Positions 5,972 to 16,269 of a stretch of DNA of 64,000 nt are shown here, in pieces; the stretch's first letter is position 1, and each line of letters begins with the position of its first letter. The notes under the pieces are model-generated. The model was not told the DNA's origin, searched no databases, and was given only the letters and a program-made list of their open reading frames with translations. A program made the translations under genes and the position numbers. The DNA comes from Reyranella sp. GTDB taxonomy: Bacteria > Pseudomonadota > Alphaproteobacteria > Reyranellales > Reyranellaceae. The stretch lies in assembly GCA_021732285.1 (NCBI GenBank), contig JAKFVH010000009.1, positions 28,309 through 92,308 on the forward strand. Reading direction: 5' to 3'.

Positions 5972-8900
5972 ATGCAGTTCAGTGGGTTGCGGCCGTCCGT
6001 CGTGTGGGATGGCGTTACCCTGAAGCGCCTGGCGCTTCTGGGGAGCTTGGGATTTGTCGCATTGTCGGCGGGCACCGCGCAGGCGGTCGACGCCACCTGG
6101 ATCGGTCCCGGCGTCTCGTGGACGACGCCCGGCAACTGGTCGGGGGGCACCCAGCCGGACGGTACCGCCACCTTCACCAACAACGGCGCGCCGACGGCGA
6201 TCACCATAACGAACACCACCGCCATCGACACGATGGAGTTCACGGCGGCGGCGCCTGCCTACTCCTTCACCGTGACCAACGGTGCGACCTTTACGATCAA
6301 CAATGCGGTCAATACCAGTTCGGGGTCCCCGCCGACCTTCGCGGTCAACGCAGGCGCGACGCTGACCGTCGGCGACGCCGCTGATGTCGCCATGGGCACG
6401 CTTGCCAACGGATCATCCGGCGGCGGCACCGTCGTCATCGGCCCCACCAGCCTCGCCGCCTTCCTGACCCTCACCCCGACCACCAGCACGACCTTCTCGG
6501 GTTCGTTCTCGGGCGCGGGCTCGCTCGAGCTTTCCAACACCTCGACGACGCTCACCCTCACCGGCGCCAGCACCGGCGGCAACATCGGCACGATCGGCGG
6601 CGACCTCACGCTGTGCAACTGCTTCGGTGGTGGGCTCACGATCGACGGCGGTTCGCTCACCGTGAACGGCCTTGGCCAGGGCGTCTTCGTCAACGGAGGT
6701 ACGCTCTCGGTGGTGAATGGCGGCAGGCTGCAGGACAATCTCGATCTCCTGGTATCGAGCGCCATGGTCATCTCCGGGTCCGGCTCGTCGGCCACGGTGG
6801 CCGGCTTCACCGGAGTCGGCATCTTCGCCGCAGGCACTCTCACCATCAGCAATGGCGGCACACTCAACAGCCAAACCGGCGCCGAGATCGATGGCTTCTT
6901 CGGTACGCCCGGCGTCACGGTGACGGGCGCCGGATCGGCCTGGACGGTTGGCGGCGCCGGCCTTGCAGTCGGCGGCGGCTCCACCAGCGGAGCGGGGACG
7001 CTCACCGTCGCCAATGGCGGCCAGGTGAACGTCACAGGTACCGTCGGCGTGGGCGATCAGACGACAGGCACGTCGTTCATGACCGTCACGGGGGCGGGCT
7101 CAACGGTGACCGCCAGCAACAGGCTTTTGATCGGTCAGACCTCGGTCGCCATCGGCACGGTCACCATCGCTGACGGCGGCATGGTGAGCGCCGGCACTCG
7201 CACCAGGATCGGCCTCGGCAGCACGCTCAATCTCGGCGTGGGTGGCCTCAGCGGTGCGCTCGTCACCCCGCTGATCGACAATGAGGGCGCGATTGTCGCC
7301 AACTTCACCGATACGCTCACCATCGCCGCGAACATCTCGGGCACCGGGACGCTCAGCAAGGCGGGCGCGGGCACCCTGATCCTCTCTGGAACCAACAGCT
7401 ATTCGGGCGGCACGACGGTGACCGGCGGCCTGGTCAACTTCGTGGTCGGTGGTCTCGGCACCGGCACGATCACCGTGAACGGCGCCGGTCTGCAATGGGC
7501 GGCGGGCAACACGTCCGACATCTCCGCGCAGCTCGCGGCGATCGGATCGGGCGGCGCCACCTTCGATACCAACGGCAACAACGTGAGCTTCGCCACGACC
7601 CTGACGGGCAGCGGCGGCCTCACCAAGGCGGGCAGCGGCACCCTGACCTTGGCAGGCGCCAGCTACAGCGGCGCCACCAACGTCAACGGCGGTACGCTTC
7701 AGGCGGGTGCCGCGAATGTCTTCGCCTCGTCGAGCGCCGTCACGGTCGCGAGCGGCGCGACGCTCGCCTTCAACGGCTTCAATCAGACCCTCGCCTCGCT
7801 CGCCGGGGCGGGCTCGGTGACGATGGGCGCGGGCAGCATGGCGGTGGGCGGCAACAACGCCAGCACGACCTTCTCCGGCACGATCAGCGGCTCGGGCGGC
7901 CTGACCAAGAACGGCACCGGTGCGCTGACGCTGAGCGGCGCCAACACCTATACCGGACTCACCACCGTCAACACCGGCACGCTGATCGTGAACGGCATCA
8001 TCGCCGGCGCGGTGACGGTGAACAGCGGTGGTCAGCTGGACGGCACCGGGCGGATCGGCGCCCTGGTGAGCAACGGCGGCATCATCGCCCCCGGCAACTC
8101 GATCGGTACGCTGAACGTCAACGGCAACCTCACCCTGAACGGCGGCACCTATCAAGTCGAGGTCAACGCCGCGGGCCAGAACGATCGCGTCAATGTCGCC
8201 GGCAGCGCGACCCTGAACGGCGGCACCGTCCAGGTGCTGGCCCAGTCGGGAAGCTACGCCCGCAACACCACATACACGATCCTCAATGCGACCAGCGGCC
8301 TGAGCGGCGCCTTCTCGGGCGTGACCAGCAACTTCGCCTTCCTGACGCCGTCGCTGTCGTACGACGCCAACAACGTCTACCTGCTGCTGTTCCAGTCGGC
8401 GAGCGCCTTCGCAGCAGGTGCCCAGACGGCCAACCAGTATGCCGTCGGCACGGTGCTCGACCAGGTCAACACCACGGCGACGGGCGACCTCAACACCGTC
8501 CTGAACGCATTGAGCGCCCTCAGCACGCAGCAGGGACCGACAGCGCTGAACGCCATCAGCGGCCAGCAGTATGCCGACTTCGGCACGACCAACATCCAGA
8601 GTGGCTACCTGTTCACCAATGTTGTCGGCCAGCAGATGGCGGCAGCGCGCGGTGGCGCGAGCGGCGGCCAGCGCCAGGCGCTGGCGCAGGCCTGCGAGAT
8701 CGAGGCGTGCGACGGCGCGAGCCCGTGGAGCGTCTGGGCAAGCGCGCTGGGCGGACTGGGTTCGGTGGCGGGCAACGGCAACAGCTCGACGCTCACCTAC
8801 AATTTCGGCGGCACGGCGGCCGGCATCGACTATCGCCTCGATCCGCGCTTCCTGGTCGGCCTCGGTGCGGGCTACGCCGCGGGCAACCAGTGGGTCGACA

Positions 8901-9565
8901 GCTTCATGGGCCGCGGCTGGACCGACATGGTGAGCGTCATCGGCTACGGCTCGTTCACGAATGCCGGCTTCTATGCCGATGCGCTGGCGGGCTACGCCTG
9001 GTCGGGCAACCAGATGCAGCGGCAGATCCAGTTCCCCGGCCTGCAGCGCACCGCCAACGGCAGCACCGGCGCCAACCAGTTCCTGGGCCAGATCGAGACC
9101 GGCTATCGCATCGGCCTCTACGCACCCGCGGCGGCGAGCGTGACGCCGTTCGCGCGCCTGCAGGGCTCGACGGTGACGCAGAACGCCTTCTCGGAATGGG
9201 GCGCCAATTCGCTCAATCTCAACGTGGCGCAGCAGACGACCAACTCGCTGCGCACGGTGTTCGGCGCCAACCTCGCCGGCGCCGTCCCGCTCGGCAGCGA
9301 GCGCAGCCTCGCGCTCGACCTGCGCCTGGGCTGGCTGCACGAGTATGCCGACACCGGCCGGCCGATGACGGCGGCCTTCGCCGGGGCGCCGTCCAACGCC
9401 TTCACCGTCTATGGCGCCACGCCGCAGCGCGATGCCGCGGTGATCGGCTTCTCCGCCGGCACCACCATCGCCGAGACAACACAGCTCTACCTGCGTTACG
9501 ACGGCGAGGTCAGTACGGGATCGAGCAACCACACGCTCAATCTCGGCCTGCGCATCTCCTGGTAG
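5972..9565 (+). CDS. Autotransporter outer-membrane beta-barrel protein with PATR-type passenger repeats
   Basis: MQFSGLRPSVVWDGVTLKRLALLGSLGFVALSAGTAQAVDATWIGPG...; repeated GGLTKAGSGTLTLAGASYSGATNVNGGTL; C-terminal barrel ending LYLRYDGEVSTGSSNHTLNLGLRISW. Start placed at ATG 5972, not ORF-track 5696. Confidence 0.92.
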   Translation: MQFSGLRPSVVWDGVTLKRLALLGSLGFVALSAGTAQAVDATWIGPGVSWTTPGNWSGGTQPDGTATFTNNGAPTAITITNTTAIDTMEFTAAAPAYSFTVTNGATFTINNAVNTSSGSPPTFAVNAGATLTVGDAADVAMGTLANGSSGGGTVVIGPTSLAAFLTLTPTTSTTFSGSFSGAGSLELSNTSTTLTLTGASTGGNIGTIGGDLTLCNCFGGGLTIDGGSLTVNGLGQGVFVNGGTLSVVNGGRLQDNLDLLVSSAMVISGSGSSATVAGFTGVGIFAAGTLTISNGGTLNSQTGAEIDGFFGTPGVTVTGAGSAWTVGGAGLAVGGGSTSGAGTLTVANGGQVNVTGTVGVGDQTTGTSFMTVTGAGSTVTASNRLLIGQTSVAIGTVTIADGGMVSAGTRTRIGLGSTLNLGVGGLSGALVTPLIDNEGAIVANFTDTLTIAANISGTGTLSKAGAGTLILSGTNSYSGGTTVTGGLVNFVVGGLGTGTITVNGAGLQWAAGNTSDISAQLAAIGSGGATFDTNGNNVSFATTLTGSGGLTKAGSGTLTLAGASYSGATNVNGGTLQAGAANVFASSSAVTVASGATLAFNGFNQTLASLAGAGSVTMGAGSMAVGGNNASTTFSGTISGSGGLTKNGTGALTLSGANTYTGLTTVNTGTLIVNGIIAGAVTVNSGGQLDGTGRIGALVSNGGIIAPGNSIGTLNVNGNLTLNGGTYQVEVNAAGQNDRVNVAGSATLNGGTVQVLAQSGSYARNTTYTILNATSGLSGAFSGVTSNFAFLTPSLSYDANNVYLLLFQSASAFAAGAQTANQYAVGTVLDQVNTTATGDLNTVLNALSALSTQQGPTALNAISGQQYADFGTTNIQSGYLFTNVVGQQMAAARGGASGGQRQALAQACEIEACDGASPWSVWASALGGLGSVAGNGNSSTLTYNFGGTAAGIDYRLDPRFLVGLGAGYAAGNQWVDSFMGRGWTDMVSVIGYGSFTNAGFYADALAGYAWSGNQMQRQIQFPGLQRTANGSTGANQFLGQIETGYRIGLYAPAAASVTPFARLQGSTVTQNAFSEWGANSLNLNVAQQTTNSLRTVFGANLAGAVPLGSERSLALDLRLGWLHEYADTGRPMTAAFAGAPSNAFTVYGATPQRDAAVIGFSAGTTIAETTQLYLRYDGEVSTGSSNHTLNLGLRISW

Positions 9566-9606
9566 TGACCTCGACAGGGCCGCCCGCCGCCCCTAGCCTG
9601 CCCATC

Positions 9607-9849
9607 ATGAGCCTTGCCGACGTCGAGCGTTTCTCGAAGGCATCGCCTGTCGTGGCCAGCCTGCTGGCAGAAGGGCGGACGGACAGCCTGAAGGCTGCCG
9701 TCAGCATCGCCGCGGCGTGCGGCTTTCATTTCACGGTCGAGGAAGCGCGGACCTTCTTCTCCAGCCAACCCACAGCCGCGGTCCGGCACCTCACCGACGA
9801 GCAGCTCGAGAAGGTGACCGGAGGGCTGGGCTCGGGCGAACCTTCATAA
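9607..9849 (+). CDS. Nif11-type double-glycine leader peptide (RiPP/bacteriocin-type precursor), 80 aa
   Basis: MSLADVERFSKASPVVASLLAEGRTDSLKAAVSIAAACGFHFTVEEARTFFSSQPTAAVRHLTDEQLEKVTGGLGSGEPS; Nif11-like helical N-part plus LTDEQLEKVTGG; lies next to NHLP export genes. Real start is internal to ORF 7495..9849. Confidence 0.85.
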   Translation: MSLADVERFSKASPVVASLLAEGRTDSLKAAVSIAAACGFHFTVEEARTFFSSQPTAAVRHLTDEQLEKVTGGLGSGEPS

Positions 9850-9850
9850 G

Positions 9851-9978
9851 CCTCCCCATCGTCTTGCGATGGGGAGGTGTCCGCGAAGCGGACGGAGGGG
9901 TCATGAGCATCAGTGATGGTGCTCATGACCCCTCCGTCGGCGTAAGACGCCGACACCTCCCCAGCGAAGCTGGGGAGG
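9851..9978. repeat. Compound palindrome (family B), five nested/adjacent hairpins
   Basis: cctccccatcgtcttgcgatggggagg; cggaggggtcatgagcatcagtgatggtgctcatgacccctccg; cctccccagcgaagctggggagg. Confidence 0.9.
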
Positions 9979-9983
9979 AAGGT

Positions 9984-12800
9984 CTACAGCAGCTGGCGTC
10001 GGGCGAGGCGGTGGAAGGCGCCGCGCTTGGCCAAAAGCTCGTCGTAGCGGCCGGTCTCGACGATGCGGCCTGCCTCCAGGACGATGATGCGATCGGCGTC
10101 ACGGATGGTGCTCAGCCGATGGGCGACGATGATGCGGGTGGCGTTCATGCGCTCGATGCTGCGCTGGACGGTCGCCTGCGTGCGGTTGTCGAGCGCGCTT
10201 GTCGCCTCGTCGAAGAACAACAGGCGCGGCTTGTTGACCAGGGCGCGGGCGATGATCACGCGCTGACGCTGGCCGCCCGAGATCTGGCCGCCGCCGTCGG
10301 TGACGGCGCTGTCGAGCCCCATCGGCATGTTGGCGATGTCGGCCTCCAGCCCCGCCAGCCGGACGGCGTCGAGGACCTGATCGCGCGACAGCGGCGAGGA
10401 GCCCGCGATGTTCTCGTGCAGGCTGCCGGGAAACAGGGTCGAGCTCTCGAGCACGGTGCCGATCTGACGCCGCACCAGCCTGAGATCGAGATCCTTGAGG
10501 TCCTTGTCGTCGTAGGAAATGCTGCCGCGCGTCGGCGCTTCGAGCCCGAGCAGCAGGCGGAGCAGCGACGACTTGCCCGAGCCCGAGGGCCCGACGATGG
10601 CGATGCTCTCGCCCGGCCTGACGTGGAAGTCGACGCCCTCCAGCACCCACGGCCCGTCGTCGCAATAGCGGAACCACAGGTCGCGCACCGTGATGGCGCC
10701 GCTCAGCGGGCCGGGATCGGTGCGGTGCTGCTCGACCTCGAGCGGTGCCGCGAGGATGGGACGCAGCCGGGAGAAGATCGGCAGGACGTCGATCGAACTG
10801 TTCACGGCATTGGCGAGACTCATGATCGCAGCCGTGAACTGGCCGAAGGCGGCGTTGAACGCGGCGAAGGCCCCGACATCGATCAGGTTGTCGCCGCCGG
10901 CGGCGATGCCGAAGATGCCGATGGCGCCGACGAACGGCAGGCTCGAGGCGGCGACCGCCTGCAGGGCGTTGGCGCGCAGCGCCCCGGCGGCGCTGCGCCG
11001 CTGATGGGCAAAGGCGGTCGACCAGCGCGTGAAAGCGCGCAGCTCGGCGGCGGCGACGCGCAGCTTGGCGATGCCGCCGATCAGCTCGATCAGAAGGCCC
11101 GAGACGATGCCCATATGGGTGAAGACCTGCTGCTGCTTGCGTTTCTGGACGCGACCGATCGCGAACAGAAGCCCGCCTGCCACGAAGGCATAGCCGACGG
11201 CGAACAGCGTGAGCGCGCCGTCGTAGATCAGCATGATCGCCAGGCTGGCCAGCGAGAAAACGCCACCGATCACCGCATTGACCGACTGGCCGGTCAGGAT
11301 GCGGCGCATGGTGTCGACGCCGAGGATGCGCCATGTCAGGTCGCCGGTCAGGTACTGGCGGAAGAACGACAGGCGCAGCCTGAGCACGCGGTCCCAGACG
11401 GCGGCCTGCAGGCGCTGGTCGAGCTGGGTGCCGAGGCGGACCAGCGACATCGCCCGCGCCATCTGAAAGCCCGTGCCACCCACCGCGGCAGCGATCAGCA
11501 GCAGCAGCATGTCGCTCAGTAGCGTGTAACGCCCCTCGGGGATGGCTGTCCCCAGGATCGCACCGGTGGCGACCGGCATCAGCAGCGCCACCGCCGCAGC
11601 GGCGGCCGAGGCGATCAGCAGCCGACGAATGTCGCCGCGCACGCCGTAGGTCGAGAAGCGCCAGATGTCGCGGCCGCTGGGTTTGTCGGGCAGCGGCGCA
11701 TAGAGCATGTAGCCCATGGGCCTGAGGCCTGCCGCCAGGGTCGCGTCGACCGCCGTCTCGCCGAGCGTCTCGGGATCGACGACGTGCCAGCGCCGTCCGC
11801 GACACACCATGGCGAGCGGCCCGCCGGTCTTGTCCTGGACGGCGATGAAAGGCGGGCCCTGCCTCAGCCACCAGTCCCCGGTGAGCGTGATCTCGCGGAA
11901 GCCGAAGCCGCTGGCAACGGCATAGGCCTTCAACCGCTCGAACAGGGGCGCATGCACCCGGTCGTGCAGCGGCGTCCTGAGCTCGAAGCCTTCGGCGTCG
12001 GCCAGCACCCCGAGCACGCCGGGCAGCGGATCCTGGCCAGGACGGGCGACCAGGATGGGCGCCGTCGGGCGAAACAGGACGACGTCGCGCAAGCCCTTCA
12101 GCGCATGCGCGGCCCGTACCTCATCGATCTCCCGCGTCTGCTGCCAGCGCTGACGGCGGTTGGCATCGCGCTTGGTCAGGGCGACAGAGATGCGCCGCGC
12201 AATCGGCAGCGAGGCCTCCCCCAGCATGGCGGGCGAGGACCGGGCCAGCAGGGTCGCGGTGTCGATCGCCAACACGTCGTTGTCGGCCGTGATCTCGGCG
12301 CGGATCTGGTTGGCGAGAACGAGGCGCGTCGTGGCAGGCGATGCCTCGGCGCCGCCGCCGGTGGGATAGCGCAGGATCGGCGCTGCCGATTCGAGCCAGA
12401 GAATCTGCCGCGCGGTCACGCAGGCACGGGCGGCAAAGGCGCGGCTGTCGCCCTGCGCCAGCGGTTCGGTGTCGGCATCGCCGTGGGGCATTCCCGGCGC
12501 GCCGAGCAGCGCCTCGTACCACGCGTCGATGGCAGCGGCGTCGGGGGCCGCATTGGCGATCAGAGGCTTCGGCGAGGGTGGCCCCTGCTCGTGCAGCATG
12601 AAGCGGACACCCGGCGCCGCCAGCGCAAAGACGGCCGCGCCTTCGGACAGGCCGGCGAGGAACTGGTACGGCCCCGGATTGTCCGACCCGTCGAGGACGA
12701 CCGCATAGAGTCGCGCCGCACGCACCAGCCTTCCGGGCGCGCCGAGGACGCCAAGGTCGAACGGACCCGGCGGTCCGGACGTCGAGGCCGGCGCGTTCAT
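9984..12800 (-). CDS. NHLP/NHLM bacteriocin-system ABC transporter, permease/ATP-binding subunit (no peptidase domain)
   Basis: 938 aa; long N-terminal extension, TM domain, Walker A GPSGSGKSSLLRLLLG, signature ISGGQRQRVIIARAL; adjacent to peptidase-ABC and HlyD genes. Confidence 0.92.
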   Translation of the reverse strand: MNAPASTSGPPGPFDLGVLGAPGRLVRAARLYAVVLDGSDNPGPYQFLAGLSEGAAVFALAAPGVRFMLHEQGPPSPKPLIANAAPDAAAIDAWYEALLGAPGMPHGDADTEPLAQGDSRAFAARACVTARQILWLESAAPILRYPTGGGAEASPATTRLVLANQIRAEITADNDVLAIDTATLLARSSPAMLGEASLPIARRISVALTKRDANRRQRWQQTREIDEVRAAHALKGLRDVVLFRPTAPILVARPGQDPLPGVLGVLADAEGFELRTPLHDRVHAPLFERLKAYAVASGFGFREITLTGDWWLRQGPPFIAVQDKTGGPLAMVCRGRRWHVVDPETLGETAVDATLAAGLRPMGYMLYAPLPDKPSGRDIWRFSTYGVRGDIRRLLIASAAAAAVALLMPVATGAILGTAIPEGRYTLLSDMLLLLIAAAVGGTGFQMARAMSLVRLGTQLDQRLQAAVWDRVLRLRLSFFRQYLTGDLTWRILGVDTMRRILTGQSVNAVIGGVFSLASLAIMLIYDGALTLFAVGYAFVAGGLLFAIGRVQKRKQQQVFTHMGIVSGLLIELIGGIAKLRVAAAELRAFTRWSTAFAHQRRSAAGALRANALQAVAASSLPFVGAIGIFGIAAGGDNLIDVGAFAAFNAAFGQFTAAIMSLANAVNSSIDVLPIFSRLRPILAAPLEVEQHRTDPGPLSGAITVRDLWFRYCDDGPWVLEGVDFHVRPGESIAIVGPSGSGKSSLLRLLLGLEAPTRGSISYDDKDLKDLDLRLVRRQIGTVLESSTLFPGSLHENIAGSSPLSRDQVLDAVRLAGLEADIANMPMGLDSAVTDGGGQISGGQRQRVIIARALVNKPRLLFFDEATSALDNRTQATVQRSIERMNATRIIVAHRLSTIRDADRIIVLEAGRIVETGRYDELLAKRGAFHRLARRQLL

Positions 12801-14980
12801 GCGTCGGCCTCGGCCGAGATCAGCCGGGCATAGGGACCGCCCGCCGCCACCATGTCGGCGTGGGTGCCGCGCTCGACGATGCGGCCGCGCTCGAGCACGA
12901 TGATCTCGTCGCAGTCGCGAATCGTGCTGAGGCGATGGGCGATCAGCACGCAGGTCATGCCGCGCCGTCGCACCGCGCTCAGGATCTTGTCCTCGCTCTC
13001 GGCATCGAGGCTGCTGGTTGCCTCGTCGAGCACCAGCACCGCCGGCTCCTGCACCAACGCCCGGGCGATCTCGATGCGCTGGCGCTGGCCGCCATTCAGA
13101 TTGCGCCCGCCTTCCTCGATGACGCCGTCGATATCACCCGAGAGATGCTTCACGACATCGCCGAGGCCTGCATCGTGCACCGCGGCAAGCAGGGTGCGAT
13201 GGGTAATCGTCTCGTCCCACAACGCGATGTTGTCGCGCAGCGTGCCATGGAACAGGCAGATATCCTGGTCGACCGAGGAGACGATATGGGCAAGCCGATC
13301 GCGGCCCCACTCGGCGAGCGTATGGCCGTCGATGCGAATCTCGCCGCTGCGCGGCGTATAGAGGCCGGTGATGAGCTTGCCCAGGGTCGACTTGCCGCTG
13401 CCCGAATCGCCGACCAGCGCCACCCACTGGCCGGGCGCGACCTCGATGGACACATCGTCGAGCAGCGGCGGCTCGAGCGGGTTGTAGCCGAAGGTCACGC
13501 CTTTCAGCGACAGGCGGCCGGCGGCGAAGGTCTCGACCGGCGTCGATGCCTCGGAGAAGCGCCAGTCGCGCTTGTATTGCAGCACGTCGTCGAGCCGGGT
13601 GATGTCGGCCGAGGCCTGCTGCACCTTGGCGGCCGTGCCGACCATCTGGGCGATCGGCACCGAAAAGCTCAGCACCAGGCCCTGGAAGGCGACCAGTTCG
13701 CCGACGCTCAGCGTGCCCGCGACCACCTGCACGGCGCCGACGCCCAGCACCGCGGCGGTGGTCAGGCTCGACACCAGGGGCGGCAGCAGGTTGGAGGCCT
13801 GCTGATAGACCGCGAGCTTCTGCTCGGAGTTCATCGCGCGCGCATGGTGGCCGGTCCACTTGGCGAAGAAGTCGCTCTCGGTGCCGGTGGCCTTCAGCGT
13901 CTCGATGGATTGCAGGCCGACGACCGAGACGGCGTACAGCTTGCCCATCTCGGTCTGCAGGCGCAGCACGACGTCCTGCAGCACGCGCTGCATCAACGTC
14001 AGCAGCCCGACATTGAGCGCGGCCCCGCCGATGGCGATGGCCGCCAGCGTGGGGTCGTAGAGCAGCATGACGATGCCGAGGACCGAGGCGGTGAAGCAGG
14101 TCGCCGCCGCCTGGCCGCAATCGCGCGCCAGCAGCCGGGCGACCCGGTCGTTGGAATCGATGCGGTTGGCGAGGTCGCCGGCGAAGCGCTGATTGAAGAA
14201 CTCCACCGGCAGGCGAAGCACATGCCAGGTGAACCGCGCCGACTCCTCCAGCGCCAGCTTGAGCTCCAGCCGCAGCAGCGCCATCTGCTGCACGGCCGAC
14301 AACGCGACCTGCAGCACGAACATGACGGCGAGCCCGACCAGCAGCGGGCTCAGCCAACCTTCGAAGCGCTTGACCAGGATGTCGTCGACGAAAGCCTTGG
14401 TCGCACCCGGCAGGACGAGCCCCGGGATGACCATCATCAGGCTCAGCCAGGCGATGATGGCGAGGCCCACGTGGCAGCCGGACAAGCGGTGGCCCAACTG
14501 GGCCAACAGGCCGACCGACACGCCGCCGGGCTTGAACTCGGGGCCAGGGGCGAAATGCAGCACGACGCCGGTGAAGCTCTGGCCGAACTCCTCTCGGCCG
14601 ATGCGGCGTGGGCCGGTCGCCGGGTCGTTCAGGAAGACCTCGCTATCCGAGGCGCCCTCGAGCACGAGGAAATGGTTAAAACCCCAATGGACGATGACCG
14701 GAAAGGGGCCGGCCAGGACCTCGTCGAACTCGAGACGGTGGCCCTCGGCGTCGAGGCCGTAGCGGCGCGCCGCACGCACGATGCTGGAGGCCTTGCTGCC
14801 GTCGCGCGAGACGCCGCAGGCGACGCGCAGCTCCTCGAGCGACACGCGTCGCCCGAAATGGGCGAGGATGATGGCCAGCGCGGCGGGACCGCACTCGGTG
14901 AGCTCCATCTGCAGGATGGTCGGCGTGCGGACACGGTTTCGGCGGTCGAGTCCGAGCATGCGTCGAACCCAGGAGATCAT
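12797..14980 (-). CDS. NHLP/NHLM bacteriocin-system ABC transporter with N-terminal C39 peptidase
   Basis: MISWVRRMLGLDRRNRVRTPTILQMELTECGPAALAIILAHFGRRVSLEELRVACGVSRDGSKASSIVRAARRYG...VIVHWGFNHFLVLEG (Cys and His of C39); GDSGSGKSTLGKLITG; LNGGQRQRIEIARAL; ATGA overlaps with both neighbours. Confidence 0.94.
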   Translation of the reverse strand: MISWVRRMLGLDRRNRVRTPTILQMELTECGPAALAIILAHFGRRVSLEELRVACGVSRDGSKASSIVRAARRYGLDAEGHRLEFDEVLAGPFPVIVHWGFNHFLVLEGASDSEVFLNDPATGPRRIGREEFGQSFTGVVLHFAPGPEFKPGGVSVGLLAQLGHRLSGCHVGLAIIAWLSLMMVIPGLVLPGATKAFVDDILVKRFEGWLSPLLVGLAVMFVLQVALSAVQQMALLRLELKLALEESARFTWHVLRLPVEFFNQRFAGDLANRIDSNDRVARLLARDCGQAAATCFTASVLGIVMLLYDPTLAAIAIGGAALNVGLLTLMQRVLQDVVLRLQTEMGKLYAVSVVGLQSIETLKATGTESDFFAKWTGHHARAMNSEQKLAVYQQASNLLPPLVSSLTTAAVLGVGAVQVVAGTLSVGELVAFQGLVLSFSVPIAQMVGTAAKVQQASADITRLDDVLQYKRDWRFSEASTPVETFAAGRLSLKGVTFGYNPLEPPLLDDVSIEVAPGQWVALVGDSGSGKSTLGKLITGLYTPRSGEIRIDGHTLAEWGRDRLAHIVSSVDQDICLFHGTLRDNIALWDETITHRTLLAAVHDAGLGDVVKHLSGDIDGVIEEGGRNLNGGQRQRIEIARALVQEPAVLVLDEATSSLDAESEDKILSAVRRRGMTCVLIAHRLSTIRDCDEIIVLERGRIVERGTHADMVAAGGPYARLISAEADA

Positions 14981-16269
14981 CCTTCGAGGCCGAGCAGGTG
15001 CCGCATGGCGGGGATGACGAGGGAAATAGGCGCCTGGCGCTCGACGATGACGTCGACCGCCACGCGCGTGCCCCGCGTCACCGAATAGGGCGGGCCGCGA
15101 CCGCCCCACCAGGCGAAGCCGCTCGGCGTCTGCTTGTCGAGGACCACCCCGATCTTGGCCAGCAGTGGCGCGGAAGTGCCCATCAGCACGTCGGTGAGCT
15201 GCGGGTTGCGCAGGATGGCGTTGAGCTCGGCCTTGGACACACCAAGCTCGGTGATCGACAACACGCGGCCGCGCATCGCCCCATGCTCCTCCCGCCTGAC
15301 GCTGGACGGGTGCACATGGACGTCCAAGCCGGTCGTGATGCGCTTGGCCATGTTGTTGTCGAAGACGGCGACGACCTCGAAGGCTTCGGGCACCACCCGG
15401 CCGATGGTGGCGATGATGGTGCCGGGCGCCACCACGTCGCCCTGGCCGACGCGGATCTCCTCGATGCGCCCGGCGACGGGCGCTTTCACCATCGAGCCGA
15501 GGCTGACCTCGACGCTGAGCCGTGACGCCTCGGCCTGCAGCGCATCGATGTGCTCCTGCTTCTGGCGCTCGAGCTCGGCGATGTTCCCGCGCTTGGCGCC
15601 AGCCAGCTCCTCGACTTCGATGGTGCGCGCCCGGGCGTTGGCGATGTCGAGCATCGTCCGGTCATGGTCGGCGCGGGCCTGGGCGACCTCGAGACGGCTG
15701 ATGATGCCGCGGCTGAACAGCGATTCGTCGGCTGTAAGCATGTCCTGCAGACCCTTGGCGCGCACCTGCCCCGCCGTGATCTGCTCCTCGGCCACCGCCT
15801 TCTGCCGCTGCAGCATGATGTCGACCTGGCGGAGTTCCAGCTCATTCGCCTTCTTGAACTGGTCCAGATCGACCCGCAGCACGGCCAGCCGCGTGTCCAG
15901 GCTGTCGAGCTGGGTCTGCAGTGCCACCTGCTGGACGCGGGCCACGTCGGTGTCGACATCGACCATGTCGCCGCGCTTGACTAAAAGCTCGATGATCGGT
16001 CCGGCAACGATCGGCTGCACCGTATGGGCCGCCTTGCCGTCGGCCAGCAGCACGCCTTGGCCGATGACACGCGTCGGCACGGAGCCGAACAGCCCCCAGA
16101 TCAGGCCGGCGGCGACGATGACGGTGAGCGACGCCACCATCATGCGCATCGCCGGCGGAATGAGAACGATGCGCTCGGTGAGCTGATCGGACGAGCGCAG
16201 GCGCCGCAGCGCCTCGCTCCGGAAGACGATGCCCGATGAATCGGGTGTGGATGGTTTCTGCTCGGCCAT
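14977..16269 (-). CDS. NHLP/NHLM bacteriocin-system secretion protein, HlyD-like membrane fusion protein
   Basis: Single TM, coiled coil, lipoyl-like halves: VKAPVAGRIEEIRVGQGDVVAPGTIIATIGRVVPEAFEVVAVF. Confidence 0.9.
   Translation of the reverse strand: MAEQKPSTPDSSGIVFRSEALRRLRSSDQLTERIVLIPPAMRMMVASLTVIVAAGLIWGLFGSVPTRVIGQGVLLADGKAAHTVQPIVAGPIIELLVKRGDMVDVDTDVARVQQVALQTQLDSLDTRLAVLRVDLDQFKKANELELRQVDIMLQRQKAVAEEQITAGQVRAKGLQDMLTADESLFSRGIISRLEVAQARADHDRTMLDIANARARTIEVEELAGAKRGNIAELERQKQEHIDALQAEASRLSVEVSLGSMVKAPVAGRIEEIRVGQGDVVAPGTIIATIGRVVPEAFEVVAVFDNNMAKRITTGLDVHVHPSSVRREEHGAMRGRVLSITELGVSKAELNAILRNPQLTDVLMGTSAPLLAKIGVVLDKQTPSGFAWWGGRGPPYSVTRGTRVAVDVIVERQAPISLVIPAMRHLLGLEG

Follow-up and report, generated by a model that had tools for sequence, protein, structure and literature searches.

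On balance we favour the view that a short open reading frame (ORF) at 9607..9849 (+), within a 64-kb window of DNA from the soil alphaproteobacterium Reyranella sp. (the whole stretch analysed here), encodes a divergent Nif11-type precursor that is cut and exported by the NHLM system encoded beside it, and that this exporter is probably shared. The ORF specifies 80 aa (MSLADVERFSKASPVVASLLAEGRTDSLKAAVSIAAACGFHFTVEEARTFFSSQPTAAVRHLTDEQLEKVTGG|LGSGEPS), comprising a leader (residues 1-73) which ends in LTDEQLEKVTGG and a predicted 7-aa product, LGSGEPS, and it converges on the last gene of the exporter operon, ABC2 (9984..12800, -).

The exporter operon and the peptide gene

The window carries an intact three-gene NHLM exporter operon, which reads from right to left on the reverse strand and begins with a HlyD-like membrane fusion protein of 430 aa (16269..14977), followed by ABC1, an ATP-binding cassette (ABC) protein with C39 peptidase, permease and ATPase parts (14980..12797; 727 aa when counted from the ATG that overlaps the HlyD gene), and by ABC2, with permease and ATPase parts (12800..9984; 938 aa). 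All three scored above the NCBIfam equivalog cut-offs, HlyD with 215 bits to TIGR03794 (cut-off 156.2), ABC1 with 938 bits to TIGR03796 (cut-off 853.3) and ABC2 with 768 bits to TIGR03797 (cut-off 709.4), which bears out the original prediction, made from the DNA letters alone, of a complete NHLM export system. The ATGA overlaps by which it had seen the three genes coupled were likewise read directly, as aaggATGAtctc at the HlyD/ABC1 junction and gcATGAacg at the ABC1/ABC2 junction. Membership of the NHLM group is also indicated by precursor linkage, an adjacent Nif11-like ORF being present and kept in relatives. The C39 catalytic triad of ABC1 is intact (C42, H115 and D131, in the numbering of the 739-aa translation of 12800-15016), and the nearest solved structure to this domain is LahT150 (PDB 6MPZ, E=5e-42). 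In the ABC1 tree, 17 copies from the genus formed a single clade (support 100/100) placed among NHLM loci. Assignment of ABC1 to the HlyB, LssB or bacteriocin_ABC families was ruled out by the cut-offs and by this placement, and the grouping with a non-NHLM family that the original prediction had named as evidence against itself was not observed.

The 80-aa ORF gave matches to the leader_Nif11 model TIGR03798 (E=2.9e-4, 21.0 bits) and to Pfam Nif11 (PF07862; E=1.8e-3, 18.9 bits) that were significant yet under the respective cut-offs of 32.3 and 23.8. The end of its leader carries the double glycine together with Leu at -12, Leu at -7 and Val at -4, the pattern of the LahT150 motif rules (PMC6363468). 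A search of the 64 kb in six frames with L[STDEAN]xxxLxx[VIL]xG[GA] returned just two matches, one of them inside the ORF, while ten shuffles of the window gave 0 or 1 match each; the second match (3463, +) sits in an unsupported frame, leaving the window with no further GG precursor of this motif. Rhodospirillales bacterium URHD0017 (G056), the sister species and closest named genome, has an ABC1 which is 94% identical, and an ortholog of the ORF lies at the same convergent place with 90% identity and the tail LVSGEPP, differing at 2/7 residues from that of the window. Comparison of the two species gave dN/dS ratios (non-synonymous to synonymous substitution rates) of 0.26 for the ORF, 0.16 for ABC2 and 0.13 for HlyD, with 12/20 of the substitutions in the ORF at third codon positions. 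A spurious ORF is ruled out by this conservation, by the dN/dS value and by the rarity of the motif in the shuffles, and, judged on its sequence, the ORF is more than chance and represents a divergent Nif11-type leader under purifying selection. The Nif11-like N-terminal part that had been described on first reading is thus upheld in divergent form, and a lack of both Nif11 matches and conservation, which was to have spoken against it, was not what we found. Likewise, the features of a compact Nif11 system were recovered, but the earlier description had missed the odd point, namely the 7-aa tail.

Among 75 genomes from the same taxonomic family, in which the exporter was called by an ABC1 match at E<=1e-140, a Nif11-like ORF was present in 12/13 with such a match versus 3/62 of the others (Fisher p=2e-10, relatedness uncorrected). 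Twelve of the 14 Nif11-like peptides of the family, the one in the window included, matched TIGR03798 (best 3.8e-11), and a peptide of the sister (G056:C32) passed its cut-off with 32.6 bits. Their tails differ widely, being Cys-rich, Gly/Ala-rich, poly-Pro or very short. A Nif11-like ORF convergent after ABC2 was also found in G042 (tail WGAYK), in G020 (as a precursor array) and in operons of the type present on contig C35 of the window's own genome; the G042 ortholog, which is syntenic, is diverged in its N-terminal part and keeps L-12, L-7, V-4 and GG. Convergent with the C35-type NHLM operon of two species is a Nif11-like ORF with a deletion in the middle of its leader (L138 9118-9327 and L141 14894-15103), which ends LSDAELETVAGA and has an identical poly-Pro tail, GDGGKGNPNDKPPPPPANSV, in both. 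More broadly, TIGR03796 was found above cut-off in 23/387 sampled alphaproteobacterial genomes, and literature searches turned up no earlier account of the system for this lineage.

Several points weigh against the interpretation of the ORF as an exported precursor. The peptide scores under both curated Nif11 cut-offs, and its AlphaFold2 model, built with 23 sequences, is all-helical and of low confidence (predicted local distance difference test score, pLDDT, of 62). The tails vary (LGSGEPS versus LVSGEPP; WGAYK), leaving the sequence of the tail itself with no visible constraint. Furthermore, the p-value for co-occurrence ignores relatedness, and the profile behind it included peptides found near exporters, a single-sequence search giving 10/13.

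Predicted cleavage and export, and the flanks of the peptide gene

The C39 protease LahT150 cuts Nif11 leaders, for which positions -4, -7 and -12 and the double Gly matter; charged substitutions at these three positions impair cleavage, and 13 residues of the leader end with a 4-residue tail suffice (PMC6363468). Because LahT150 accepts 13 leader residues plus four, the 7-residue tail is long enough for cleavage. By analogy, the intact C39 triad, the likeness to LahT150 and the L-12/L-7/V-4/GG pattern support the expectation, already voiced in the original prediction, that the peptide is cut after GG. The operon at 16269..9984 encodes the complete NHLM exporter and, in the mechanism we propose, the convergent ORF encodes one of its substrates. 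The leader end would dock on the ABC1 C39 domain through L-12, L-7 and V-4 and be cut after GG, which would release the heptapeptide LGSGEPS; the ABC1/ABC2 pair would export it by way of HlyD and a TolC-type channel that is not linked. Precursors from other places in the genome probably use this exporter too. Since there is no linked tailoring enzyme and the tail contains no Cys, the heptapeptide is most likely unmodified, and it could act as a signal or in a microcin-like role. We consider it rather doubtful that the short-tailed Nif11 genes of this lineage (LGSGEPS, LVSGEPP, WGAYK) export unmodified 5- to 7-residue cell-cell signals via a full NHLM exporter; if true, Gram-negative bacteria would here be using the Nif11 system with none of the chemistry of ribosomally synthesised and post-translationally modified peptides (RiPPs).

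An imperfect palindromic dispersed repeat of 134 bp (9850..9983), which occurs in at least 40 places in the genome, takes up the space between the facing stop codons of the peptide gene and ABC2. The sister does not have it, and there the two genes share 4 nt at their ends. Loss of a longer core to the repeat is ruled out, because the repeat-free sister keeps 7 residues after GG, and the short tail is therefore older than the insertion. This bears on whether the 80-aa gene might instead be a coreless precursor, decaying or productless, with the exporter kept for other substrates, an explanation that would fit the very short and poorly conserved tail (2/7 residues differing between sisters), a leader below the family cut-offs and the other precursors of the genome. 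We regard it as improbable, however, given the purifying selection on the gene (dN/dS 0.26), the syntenic G042 ortholog, which is likewise short-tailed and keeps its protease motif, and a tail whose shortness predates the repeat.

On its other side, the peptide gene starts 41 nt after the stop codon of an autotransporter gene on the same strand (6002..9565, +), the identity of which was confirmed by PF03797 and its PATR repeats. This arrangement could mean that the peptide partners the autotransporter and not the exporter, to which we give hardly any weight, as the sister has both peptide and exporter with no autotransporter at the corresponding place. Moreover, upstream homology to the sister begins right at the autotransporter stop, as a conserved block of 44 nt (9563..9606, +) which is kept although the neighbouring gene differs. 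Within this block TCGACA-N17-TAGCCT lies 7 nt before the ATG (6 nt in the sister); the block has no Shine-Dalgarno sequence, and a promoter scan returned nothing at threshold. Because the motif is so close to the ATG and no ribosome-binding site is present, it is a possible promoter of a leaderless mRNA, albeit one below the threshold of the scan.

Tailoring enzymes and unlinked precursors

The original prediction had seen no modification enzyme linked to the exporter, and this holds for the locus, there being no radical SAM gene on the window's contig (C1). In the whole of the own genome, which is 81% complete so that the absence of enzymes is not final, neither LanM nor YcaO was found and rSAM_ocin_1 had no match above cut-off; a modified RiPP pathway of the lanthipeptide, thiazole/oxazole-modified microcin (TOMM) or radical SAM kind, with its enzyme either linked or present together with a precursor, was not detected in this assembly. 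Nor was an enzyme evident at the orthologous locus of the sister, whose genome is 99% complete.

The suggestion that extra precursors might be unlinked is supported by the own genome, where contig C57 encodes a precursor with a nitrile-hydratase-type leader peptide (NHLP) above cut-off and the tail YPATWDRQPGTPSLTRGAR, contig C62 carries two NHLP-like ORFs without GG, and contig C35 has a second NHLM operon adjoined by a Nif11-like ORF. The TIGR03793 search at E<=1e-3 gave weak matches in almost all genomes of the family, and only those above cut-off were used. The companion suggestion, that enzymes are unlinked, is borne out only in the sister, LanM, YcaO and rSAM_ocin_1 having been absent from the own genome at 81% completeness. 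In URHD0017 a TOMM-type cluster (G056:C33, L180 7667-13203) combines a SagD-type YcaO fusion and a SagB dehydrogenase with five NHLP precursors that all score above cut-off. The 20 kb read there contain no NHLM gene, so that its exporter presumably acts in trans; contig C55 of the same genome encodes rSAM_ocin_1 and another YcaO. With an NHLP on C57, NHLP-like ORFs on C62 and enzymes in URHD0017 away from an exporter, precursors, enzymes and exporters are partly uncoupled in this lineage, and the exporter in the window may serve substrates encoded elsewhere. Two tandem NHLP-like ORFs without GG, standing beside the ribosomal protein operon, are conserved in both sister species (L179 9428-10059 and L181 9936-10556).

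These unlinked genes are also what one would expect if the working clients of the exporter were modified RiPPs encoded elsewhere, with the tailoring genes either absent from the draft or on other contigs. The C57 precursor and the C62 ORFs, the YcaO/SagB cluster with its five NHLPs, for which the 20 kb read lack an NHLM gene, the second YcaO and rSAM_ocin_1 of the sister and the incompleteness of the own genome all argue for this explanation, which we rate as the most serious of the alternatives while still thinking it unlikely. Against it stand the failure to find LanM, YcaO or an above-cut-off rSAM_ocin_1 in the own genome, the orthologous locus in the 99% complete sister with no evident enzyme, and a tail that offers just two Ser and no Cys.

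Known systems and protease-less exporters

The window locus is genuine, yet it is a rather ordinary example of the known NHLM/Nif11 secretion systems; its mild oddities are a tail of 7 aa and a leader that scores below threshold. Like N11P/NHLM systems (TIGR03798; TIGR03794/03796/03797; PMC2887384), it has three exporter genes above cut-off, a Nif11-type leader with a GG site, a precursor adjoining the exporter and a leader more conserved than its core. It differs from them in a leader below the TIGR03798 and Pfam cut-offs, a 7-aa tail without Cys, the lack of linked LanM, YcaO or radical SAM genes and an alphaproteobacterial host. With the lah system (6MPZ; PMC6363468) it shares a C39 domain whose closest solved structure is LahT150 and a Nif11 leader that keeps the residues needed; however, the cores of lah precursors are long and diverse (LahA4, 2352 Da; LahA7, 2660 Da), whereas at the window locus there is one precursor, its tail is 7 aa long, and a HlyD partner and a second ABC protein are added. 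Cores of 7-10 aa after GG occur beside NHLM in several Bacillota, for example Pelotomaculum and Desulfosporosinus, where four loci with the same exporter family (L007, L008, L026 and L038) have 7-9-aa cores after VAGG. Unlike the tail in the window, theirs are hydrophobic, in many cases with Cys or Trp, and L007 and L008 have rSAM_ocin_1 nearby (L008 also PoyD).

In treating the missing enzyme as noteworthy, the original prediction overstated its case. Outside the genus, BLAST matches to LanM, YcaO, rSAM_ocin_1 or PoyD queries were obtained for only 8 of the 47 NHLM loci that span at least 20 kb, which is a crude count and a lower bound, and NHLM loci lacking such enzymes are also found in other phyla. 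Haft et al. 2010 (PMC2887384) reported that the exporter correlates with NHLP leaders more strongly than tailoring enzymes do and that precursors can be distant from enzymes. The linked version is found in G048, where PoyD-type and rSAM_ocin_1 genes lie between precursors and exporter. The locus extends Nif11/NHLM secretion in Alphaproteobacteria and, with its C39 domain, its 7-aa tail and a leader whose recognition residues are known, offers a compact system for in vitro work. Should the tail prove unmodified, the Nif11 leader would be an export tag independent of RiPP chemistry, in agreement with Haft et al., who argued that leaders are conserved by the transporter and not by the enzymes. 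As the genes for precursor, exporter and enzyme can lie far apart in a genome, gene-cluster mining undercounts such systems.

More unusual than the window locus is a subclade of the 17-copy genus ABC1 clade that has lost its protease. In three copies the catalytic Cys is replaced by Ser and the His is missing (L149, G047:C34; L150, G018:C51; L152, G045:C88), and three others have no C39 domain (L139, G000:C114, in the own genome; L151, G018:C51; L153, G045:C38). In the family search G018, which is 99% complete, had only protease-dead copies, yet a GG-bearing Nif11-like precursor lies beside one of them. Nif11-like ORFs adjoin all three Cys-to-Ser exporters (L149 4604-4942, L150 8598-8948 and L152 5968-6297, all -), and their long tails, which start PCWYW and end GQFDFDHGRYWS(L/V)GP, are unusually conserved across three species, in contrast to the usual hypervariable cores. 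Close to protease-less NHLM operons we also observed a glycosyltransferase 2-radical SAM/SPASM fusion (L184 7496-9502, G000:C114:17496-19502; L150 210-2123, G018:C51), which lies near AsnB-like, carbamoyltransferase and PhyH genes. Finally, directly after an NHLM-like operon, L156 15379-20000 encodes a protein at least 1540 aa long that matched nothing in Pfam or NCBIfam, and the LDLDRVAGGLT in its N-terminus suggests that it is possibly a very large double-glycine substrate.

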